Shown here: piece after piece, positions 28,828 to 46,252 of the stretch
Layout: every line of letters starts with the position of its first letter
Numbering within the stretch: the stretch's first letter is position 1
Source of the DNA: Thermotoga sp. Mc24
GTDB lineage: Bacteria; Thermotogota; Thermotogae; Thermotogales; Thermotogaceae
Assembly: GCF_000784835.1 (NCBI RefSeq)
Contig: NZ_JSFH01000002.1
Span: 1 to 64,000 of the forward strand
Length of the DNA: 64,000 nucleotides
Direction of reading: 5' to 3'
The notes under the pieces: generated by a model
Seen by the model: the letters and a program-made list of their open reading frames with translations, nothing else
What the model was told of the DNA's origin: nothing
Database searches by the model: none
Made by a program: the position numbers and the translations under genes

Positions 28828-31800
28828 GTTTCAATACTTCCTTAGAGGTATGGAAACCTATCTTACAATTCGACCCTCAAACAAAAGAAATCAGTTTCAA
28901 TACTTCCTTAGAGGTATGGAAACAGTAAATTGTCAAGCACATCAGGTGACACCTTTCCATGTTTCAATACTTCCTTAGAGGTATGGAAACACAATTCTCG
29001 AAAAACAGAATGCTCTACCAACACAGGTTTCAATACTTCCTTAGAGGTATGGAAACTGACATAATCGACGGGGTATTTCTCGAAATACTGAGTTTCAATA
29101 CTTCCTTAGAGGTATGGAAACGCTATTTTGTTTCCGAGCGCTTCGATACCTTTTCCAAGTTTCAATACTTCCTTAGAGGTATGGAAACTCTTCGAAAATG
29201 AGCTTGAAACCGATCGATGGCATTGTTTCAATACTTCCTTAGAGGTATGGAAACACTTTTTCCCTTGACTTTTTCCACATATTCTTTTATTGTTTCAATA
29301 CTTCCTTAGAGGTATGGAAACATCACTGCATTCAACTGTAAATTCATTTTCTTTGTTTTGTTTCAATACTTCCTTAGAGGTATGGAAACTAGTCTGAACG
29401 AGATTTTTCCGTGGGCCCCCGAGCCCAGTTTCAATACTTCCTTAGAGGTATGGAAACAATATTCTATTGCATCTACACCCAATGAGATCAAGGTTTCAAT
29501 GTTTCAATACTTCCTTAGAGGTATGGAAACACGAAAAGAAATACGTGCTCGAAGGATTCGACATTGGGTTTCAATACTTCCTTAGAGGTATGGAAACGAC
29601 TGCTCGTGGTAGAGAAGCATACCGTTTTGACTACGTTTCAATACTTCCTTAGAGGTATGGAAACAATTTTTGTGTTAATGCAAGTGCGGGATCGGTAAAA
29701 AGTTTCAATACTTCCTTAGAGGTATGGAAACCTGACAAGGGAAACCTTTTCGTACTGAACTACACGAAGTTTCAATACTTCCTTAGAGGTATGGAAACAG
29801 AGAAGTGATGATCGCTTCACCTTCTGCAACAAAGGTTTCAATACTTCCTTAGAGGTATGGAAACAGGAGTTGAAAAGTAATTCTATCTTTGATCAGCGTG
29901 GTTTCAATACTTCCTTAGAGGTATGGAAACCAGCCACACAGGCGACAAGCACAGAATCTGTTGTTCGTTTCAATACTTCCTTAGAGGTATGGAAACTTGG
30001 CTTATTTGGGAATTATTTGGCTAATAAAGATTGTTTCAATACTTCCTTAGAGGTATGGAAACTACACCCATAATTGCTTGGAAGGTACCAAGGCAAGGTT
30101 TCAATACTTCCTTAGAGGTATGGAAACTTCCTGCACAGTTTTGTTTGTTTCAATTGCATTCTGAGTTTCAATACTTCCTTAGAGGTATGGAAACAAGAGC
30201 TTAGAACAATGCTGTGGGTCGGACTCAAAGTTTCAATACTTCCTTAGAGGTATGGAAACAAGGAAACGTCACGGAAATGGCACTATTTTGCAGAAAGTTT
30301 CAATACTTCCTTAGAGGTATGGAAACTCAAATCTTCATACCAGGCCGGATATACCTTCCTAGTTTCAATACTTCCTTAGAGGTATGGAAACTTCTCCTGC
30401 TTCAATTCTGTCAATCAGCTTATCTACGTTTCAATACTTCCTTAGAGGTATGGAAACTCTTTTTCCTCTCGTTTCTCCTCAGCTTCTTCTGTTCGCTCGT
30501 TTCAATACTTCCTTAGAGGTATGGAAACTTGCTTCCGATGTGACTTTCTGTTCAAATTCTTCAAGTTTCAATACTTCCTTAGAGGTATGGAAACCGGGAA
30601 CAGGAAAAACTACCTTTGTAGCGAGACTTCGTTTCAATACTTCCTTAGAGGTATGGAAACTTGCACCGAAGACGTACATTTTCGATACAGCAGAAGTTTC
30701 AATACTTCCTTAGAGGTATGGAAACTAGAGCTTTGCTTTTCGCCCCTTTGACTTGCTTTTAGTTTCAATACTTCCTTAGAGGTATGGAAACTGGTGTCAG
30801 TTCTTGCAAAAAGTCCCATCATCTCAGTTTCAATACTTCCTTAGAGGTATGGAAACAGACGCTCCGGGCGTGCAGATCCCGTCGTGAAAGAGTTTCAATA
30901 CTTCCTTAGAGGTATGGAAACTTTGCTACATACACACCGGGGGCAGGCATCATTGCAGTTTCAATACTTCCTTAGAGGTATGGAAACCGAAAACACAACC
31001 ATGCGCAATTACGCAGGAGATCGTTTCAATACTTCCTTAGAGGTATGGAAACACCACTCTGAAGGAAGAAGTGTCTATCCTTTCGCCGTGTTTCAATACT
31101 TCCTTAGAGGTATGGAAACATAACACGACGGTTGCGGTTCTGTTTCGTTTTTATGTTTCAATACTTCCTTAGAGGTATGGAAACACAATTTGCATATATC
31201 CGCCGCATGCCTATCGCCGGTTTCAATACTTCCTTAGAGGTATGGAAACGGTTCCTGTCTAATTCCCAATCGACGTATAGAACGTGTTTCAATACTTCCT
31301 TAGAGGTATGGAAACTAGTTCTTCCCTTTTACAAATACATGGAGCACCCCCGTTTCAATACTTCCTTAGAGGTATGGAAACACAGGACCAGGCCCTGTGT
31401 AACCACCTTCCTGTTTGCGTTTCAATACTTCCTTAGAGGTATGGAAACAACCGGCGGGCGACATGGATAAAAATGAACGGAAACGTTTCAATACTTCCTT
31501 AGAGGTATGGAAACGAGATCCAACAAAATATCTACCACTTGCTTGGGACCGTTTCAATACTTCCTTAGAGGTATGGAAACAAGGTGCTTGAGAAGTAAAT
31601 TGTCCTTTGAAGAATAATGTTTCAATAGTTCCTTAGAGGTATGGAAACTGATAATGCACTTGTGGATTATGTTGTGGTGGAGCTACAGAGTTTCAATAGT
31701 TCCTTAGAGGTATGGAAACTCAGTTTCTACTTCTATGCCCACGCCTGGAAGTGGGGTTTCAATAGTTCCTTAGAGGTATGGAAACAATGATTTTTGTGTT

Positions 31801-44620: not shown

Positions 44621-45719
44621 GTTTCCGTACCTCTAAGGAAGTATTGAAACTACTCAGGGATCCAGCAAAATACCTTCCGTTAGCCGTTTCCATACCTCTA
44701 AGGAACTATTGAAACCCTCCACCTTGGGATTGGGATACCTCAAAGGGAATATGTTTCCATACCTCTAAGGAACTATTGAAACCAGAAGGCATGCCATCCT
44801 GGTGTGGATCGCAACAGCAAAGTTTCCATACCTCTAAGGAACTATTGAAACAGGACGAGGAAGAGGAGTTTCTTTACGTTGCAGAAGGTTTCCATACCTC
44901 TAAGGAACTATTGAAACCCGGATGCAGGAATCAGCGCCGTGAAGGATGCGCTCAGTTTCCATACCTCTAAGGAACTATTGAAACTCCAGACATATATCCA
45001 CTTTCGTTTTTGTTCTATTTGTTTCCATACCTCTAAGGAACTATTGAAACCGGCGGCACGGATTGAAGGGGGTACGAGCGTTATGAAAACAGTTTCCATA
45101 CCTCTAAGGAACTATTGAAACCCATGGTAGGACATCATTCAGATTGTGGTTGTCAGAGTTTCCATACCTCTAAGGAACTATTGAAACTTCTTACTACATC
45201 TCTAAGTCCTTCCATAGAACCACGTTTCCATACCTCTAAGGAACTATTGAAACCCTGATGCAGGAACCAGTGCTGTAAAGGATGCGGTCAGTTTCCATAC
45301 CTCTAAGGAACTATTGAAACATAAATATAGCAAAAGTGTCATACCAGTCACTTACTCTGTTTCCATACCTCTAAGGAACTATTGAAACATAAAGCGACGG
45401 TAAAGAAACAGGTAAGACATAGTGTTTCCATACCTCTAAGGAACTATTGAAACCAGAAGAACAGCACAAACTCCTCGACAGACTCATCGGTTTCCATACC
45501 TCTAAGGAACTATTGAAACCATTTACAATATACCTACTCATGATCGTCAGAATTTGTTTCCATACCTCTAAGGAACTATTGAAACGGAGCGATTTGAACC
45601 AGTCTGCGAATTTTCTGAGAGGTGTTTCCATACCTCTAAGGAACTATTGAAACTAGATCTCTCTATATTTCAAAACAATAAAGCAATGGGTTTCCATACC
45701 TCTAAGGAACTATTGAAAC
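44621..45719 (-). CRISPR. CRISPR array B: 17 repeats, 16 spacers
   Basis: Same 30-bp repeat family as array A but oriented leftward: leader on the right (45720 on), terminal repeat on the left. Sixteen repeats are the AGTTCC version; the last (44621-44650) has ACTTCC and one more substitution (GTACGG for GTATGG), the usual leader-distal decay. Spacers 35-41 bases. Two spacers, 44918-44954 and 45254-45290, are variants of one another. No cas genes nearby. Confidence 0.99.
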
Positions 45720-46252
45720 CCGTTGAGTTCAAGAGAAATTATACCACAAACACACTCTGAAAGCAAGATGTTTTTTGAACTTCCATATCCTCCCTTTCCA
45801 TAAACCATTCTAACACACAAGAGAGCATCTTCAAGTACTGTTTGGAAAAATGGAATAATTGCATAGTCAAACAAGAAAAGAACACAAGCAAAAAACAGAA
45901 GATAAATTATATCAACCTACGTCAGGGCATTTTGGGGTGTTTCTGGTAAAAATCGATTAGTTCCATGTTTCACAAATAGATGAAAGAAGGTATTCCTCAG
46001 TGTGTTAGAAGTTAACTACTAATTTCTCGAATTCAAAGCACTTACACGTCATCGATTATCACAAATTCTCTTCATATTGTCTCTTAATATCATCCATTAT
46101 TCCTTTTTTAACGCATAGCTTCCGGTACCACAAACCTGCATGAAATTTTTCGTTACCGGTAATTGCATACTCTGTATCGTTCTTCCAGTGCCAGATACAC
46201 ACATCACCTACTTTGTGAATGATTGGAACTAACCTGGTTTGTATGCATAAAA
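45720..46252 (-). repeat. 533-bp inverted repeat, copy B: CRISPR leader and upstream sequence
   Basis: Reverse-complement counterpart of 28295-28827, of equal length. Contains the same leader and the same truncated frame (KVGDVCIWHW ... GLWYRKLCVKKG), with a few substitutions such as WKND for WKID and an earlier stop. Similarity ends exactly beyond ATGCATAAAA at 46252. The 93 bases from 46253 to the TSUP gene hold only a possible promoter. Confidence 0.93.
45738..45766 (-). promoter_or_regulatory. Promoter of CRISPR array B
   Basis: Minus strand TTGCTT (45766-45761), 17-bp spacer, TATAAT (45743-45738), 18 bases before the first repeat; same arrangement as array A. Confidence 0.75.

Follow-up and report, generated by a model that had tools for sequence, protein, structure and literature searches.

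The DNA analysed here is a window of 64,000 nucleotides from Thermotoga sp. Mc24 (contig NZ_JSFH01000002.1, positions 1 to 64,000 of the forward strand), in which an array of clustered regularly interspaced short palindromic repeats (CRISPR), here called array B, occupies positions 44621..45719 on the minus strand. It consists of 17 repeats and 16 spacers; 16 of the 17 repeats are exact copies of GTTTCCATACCTCTAAGGAACTATTGAAAC (30 nucleotides), and the single degenerate one lies at the left. The leader (45720..46000, minus strand) is conserved beside the genome's other arrays and in five of the six relatives, with 73-99% identity. This conserved right flank, the degenerate repeats found at left array ends, the spacers common to relatives, which also occupy the left end, and the side on which the protospacer-adjacent motif (PAM) lies all indicate that the leader is on the right and that array B is transcribed from the minus strand. 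The guides are therefore the reverse complement of the plus strand of the window and, of the two spacers that are our subject, the one at 45254..45290 (minus strand; no. 10 from the left, closer to the leader) is the later and the one at 44918..44954 (minus strand; no. 5) the earlier.

In the genome of 1.82 Mb this repeat makes up eight arrays, which together have about 200 spacers, and it is also present in six related genomes of the genus. The repeat and the TM-type cas families mark the host as Thermotoga-type. The only cas1 gene found belongs to a type I-B locus encoding Cas8b/Csh1 (TM1802 family), Csh2 (Cas7), Cas5h, Cas3, Cas4 and Cas1b, and the type III-B genes cmr1-6 follow it. The same gene set (TM1802-type Cas8b, Cas7, Cas5 and Cas3) makes up the type I-B1 system of Thermotoga maritima (PMC13199841).

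The two spacers lie at the coordinates given by the sequence-only reading, both flanked by exact 30-nucleotide repeats, and our recount confirmed the ungapped alignment that it had reported, with 31 of 37 positions in agreement. Its statement that such a pair is unlikely by chance was also upheld: in a comparison of all pairs among the 198 spacers first extracted from the genome, this pair scored 19, against a best score of 3-4 in three shuffled sets, and the binomial chance of 31 matches in 37 is about 1e-13. The differences fall at guide positions 4, 14, 17, 20, 24 and 35, the first of which lies in the seed. In the true reading frame four of the six are at third codon positions and the other two cause conservative amino-acid changes, the encoded peptides being SASFTALIPAS and TASFTALVPAS. 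The earlier claim that most differences fall at third codon positions thus stands, although its frame was on the wrong strand: the proposed peptide DAGISAVKDAL is the antisense frame of a gene whose product reads (S/T)ASFTAL(I/V)PAS, and the antisense frame shows the same four differences because third positions coincide on both strands. By itself the codon pattern is weak evidence and would not decide against an in-array copy: a neutral simulation gave at most two amino-acid changes with P = 0.19 and equally conservative changes with P = 0.015.

The protospacer was located in a phage. A degenerate DNA pattern of the originally proposed peptide matched one tailed phage, in three of its IMG/VR contigs (3300034520_000137, 3300033985_000248 and 3300033998_000311), with the gene on the opposite strand, and these contigs encode a terminase, an SPP1-type portal, a capsid, a tail-tube and a tape-measure protein. 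One and the same phage site is matched by the earlier spacer at 33 of 37 positions and by the later at 35 of 37, whereas the best of 990 scans with shuffled spacers reached an identity of 0.68. The target is a tail-tube gene (PF18906, Phage_tube_2; E = 1.8e-38, 133.1 bits against a curated cut-off of 27), and the phage peptide at the site is SASFTALVPAS; the position at which the two spacers encode I or V also varies among homologues. Homologues in IMG/VR relatives whose capsid is 80% identical do not have the site in close form (21-25 of 37). Four other spacers of the genome match the same phage, as do spacers of two related genomes, one of them at 35 of 35 positions. In Marinitoga camini virus 1, Marinitoga camini virus 2 and Marinitoga phage MPV1 the tail gene order is the same and the tail-tube protein is 64-67% identical (67% for Marinitoga camini virus 1); these three viruses infect Marinitoga, whereas the contigs found here are matched by spacers of Thermotoga-type genomes. 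As a candidate source, a prophage in the same genus or family was rejected, no tail or capsid homologue having been found in 7 and 14 genomes, respectively, in a search run without a positive control. No homologue of the tail protein was found in GTDB contigs, and a DNA search of INPHARED found nothing for either the array region or a related phage.

Next to the site in the known phage allele, both spacers have TCA, which answers positively the question of a shared PAM. Among the 41 spacers of our PAM set, which match two phage families at at least 80% identity, NCA, mostly TCA, lies on the 5' side of the guide for 24 of 41 protospacers, against about 6% expected. In T. maritima the type I-B PAM is YYD and the seed comprises positions 1-5 and 7 (PMC13199841). 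The natural TCA falls within YYD, and the natural PAM of this Thermotoga-type I-B system thus agrees with that 2026 in vitro study, although the motif derived from 41 natural protospacers is narrower than the one measured in vitro. After the TCA of the PAM, the guide of the earlier spacer begins with TGAGCGCATCC. Position 4, at which the pair differs, is part of the T. maritima seed, and neither guide would then be expected to work on the other's allele; against the known phage allele the seed match is perfect for the earlier guide and imperfect for the later. Each guide would therefore probably cover one phage allele, making the pair non-redundant.

We consider it very probable that the two spacers are separate captures, made at different times, of one PAM-defined tail-tube protospacer from two diverged alleles of the phage. 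The type I-B machinery would cut spacers beside TCA and insert them at the leader end; the earlier spacer would have been captured first, from one allele of a tailed phage infecting Thermotoga-type hosts. An allele whose seed no longer paired with the earlier guide could then have been captured at that TCA a second time, giving rise to the later guide. The two source phages would have carried exactly these alleles. With the invader and its gene in hand and one PAM common to both spacers, the proposal of a double sampling of one site in a protein-coding invader gene, from diverged relatives, holds. Some results weigh against this account. An exact copy of either allele was not found in phage, a second pattern, written in the correct frame, having hit no contigs beyond these three. 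For the phage stretches that are mapped, uniform sampling of PAM sites predicts about 0.26 same-site pairs and four of the five pairs of the genome map there, so there may be modest extra clustering from conserved motifs, hot spots or priming. Same-site pairs are also easier to see in conserved genes, which is a detection bias.

The most direct alternative, which had been named in advance as the one that would overturn a double capture, is that one spacer is a duplicate of the other made within the array and later mutated. Such events do occur in these genomes: identical 38-nucleotide spacers stand side by side in another array of this genome (L013, spacers 20 and 21), and drift in place is possible, since orthologous arrays of related species have a terminal spacer with 5 differences in its 37 positions, albeit one at the decayed trailer end. 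For the present pair this origin is highly improbable. Of the six positions that separate the two spacers, the phage agrees with the later one at four and with the earlier one at two, and never shows a third letter; the known allele is thus a mosaic of both spacers, with no letter private to the phage. If one spacer were a mutated copy, the probability of matching the phage letters in this way would be 2.8e-6 with the earlier spacer as template and 2.5e-3 with the later. The flanking repeats are moreover all exact, with the six changes confined to the spacer (P = 0.003), and the spacers neighbouring the pair are not duplicated. The adjacent identical spacers of L013 may have arisen when a repeat-spacer unit was recently duplicated, or may be an artefact of assembly. 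The drifting spacer is the oldest of array L012, compared with the orthologous L032 and L044, where the flanking DNA is nearly identical between the species; decay in place is a possible explanation of its divergence.

How unusual it is to find two spacers for one site depends on the number of sites available. The genome contains five same-site variant pairs, including one in opposite orientation. For about 200 spacers distributed over PAM-limited positions of one to three phage families of 35 kb, the number of families being assumed, we expect between 5.4 pairs (one family) and 1.8 (three), the probability of five or more ranging from 0.62 to 0.035. Chance re-sampling under the PAM is thus sufficient, and priming may have helped without being needed. 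Seven genomes together have 17 variant pairs in the same orientation; their PAM-side ends coincide in 11 and their distal ends in 5, which is what would be seen if spacer length is set from the PAM. The inference of primed acquisition made from the sequence was consequently not sustained, the five pairs observed fitting the roughly two to five of PAM-limited sampling; that of site-biased acquisition survives as PAM-limited sampling and in no further sense.

Priming would mean that the earlier guide bound the mutated phage imperfectly and thereby recruited Cas3 and the adaptation proteins to that region again, with the updated spacer then inserted at the same site. We regard this as unlikely, even though several observations speak for it: the alleles differ at seed position 4 and at five others with the PAM intact, the earlier spacer is the older by array order, the type I-B genes for Cas3, Cas4 and Cas1 are present, an array A spacer matches 57 bases from the pair's protospacer, and same-site pairs on the mapped stretches exceed the 0.26 of uniform sampling. 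The genome-wide count just given needs no such steering, high-identity matches are evenly spread over the second phage contig (Kolmogorov-Smirnov, KS, p = 0.71), and pairs at one site are likewise found between species, where an older spacer cannot prime. Priming, moreover, normally yields spacers around the primed site and not at it. A stricter form, in which memory is updated by site-directed priming, the guide outdated by the change at seed position 4 steering re-capture to the very same PAM, appears more doubtful still; if true, the arrays of this genome would contain, for one site at a time, successions of outdated and renewed guides, of which the five pairs here would be examples. The excess on the mapped stretches, where same-site and overlapping pairs modestly outnumber uniform PAM sampling, could also reflect an acquisition hot spot beyond the PAM, caused for example by local sequence, free DNA ends or replication, which we find improbable. 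It is the low-identity matches that cluster, in a conserved region of portal and head genes (KS p = 0.016); the high-identity ones show no such clustering. This is the pattern of the detection bias, which therefore accounts for part of the excess.

Separate captures of one protospacer also have a precedent. In the type I-C and I-F arrays of Legionella pneumophila, older and newer spacers target the same or overlapping sites of the element LME-1, the older with PAM or seed mismatches and the newer matching perfectly, which the authors read as repeated invasion, possibly with priming (PMC5071653). There the element is available and the newer spacer fits it perfectly, whereas the phage allele known here is intermediate and matches the seed of the older spacer. 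In view of this precedent we count the pair as a known type of event: it is repeat sampling of one protospacer, with two spacers for one site of related invaders beside the same PAM, and is largely expected. Nevertheless, counting same-site pairs against the number of PAM sites separates ordinary PAM-limited re-sampling from a special mechanism, and the pair offers ready guides for relating seed mismatch, re-acquisition and priming in a heat-loving bacterium. The captures also reveal which phage was sampled and which sequence tag directed the two events, and the analysis ties two uncultured tailed-phage families to Thermotoga-type hosts.

Regarding the use of the pair, both guides would act by DNA interference. 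Given minus-strand transcription of the array, both are sense to the tail-tube messenger RNA, whereas use by the type III-B (Cmr) complex calls for antisense guides; with the PAM present, they are predicted from sequence to be usable by the type I-B system only. Elsewhere in the PAM set, TCA lies on the distal side in 7 of 41 cases (about 17%, against 0.8 expected; p = 1.6e-5), as in flipped insertions, and a cas4 gene is present. With gene strands held fixed in the counts, 16 of the 17 spacers lacking a guide-side NCA are antisense to phage genes, against 10 of the 24 that have one (Fisher p = 7.5e-4 at at least 80% identity); with the threshold at 95% identity p is 0.05, with 75% it is 0.0095, and the association is absent when YYD is taken as the PAM. 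Since the III-B complex needs antisense guides, this fits type III-B use and is a hint, post hoc and from a small sample, that PAM-less or flipped spacers are kept for RNA targeting. A survey of shared arrays likewise found one repeat set apparently serving DNA-targeting and RNA-targeting effectors; there the PAM was selected equally in shared arrays, whereas here there is an additional PAM-less subset that is almost always antisense.

Several further spacers bear on the two phage families. Three plus-strand spacers of array A match the same phage as the pair: 30792..30826 (33 of 35) the start of the gene directly after the tail-tube gene, at the 57-base distance mentioned above, 30988..31022 (32 of 35) a minor head gene and 31382..31418 (30 of 37) the tape-measure gene. 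The second family of tailed phages is represented by IMG/VR 3300034759_000323, 3300033999_000254 and 3300034524_000141. It is targeted by two minus-strand spacers of array B, no. 13 (45454..45489), an apparently flipped insertion with TCA on the opposite side that matches a gene of head-morphogenesis type at 36 of 36 positions, and no. 15 (45586..45623), which matches a long tail gene at 36 of 38. Both uncultured families are matched by dozens of spacers of Thermotoga-type genomes, many of them exactly, and are assigned to Thermotoga-type hosts on these matches. Among the other variant pairs, patterns for two led to no phage. Spacer 22 of array L013 and spacer 16 of L016 form one variant pair (32 of 36; AFEWIPWLGDK and VFEWIPWLGDK), whose peptide was not found in IMG/VR phages. 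Spacer 18 of L012 and spacer 9 of L013, in different arrays, cover the same portal-gene site with identical ends in opposite orientation (28 of 38).
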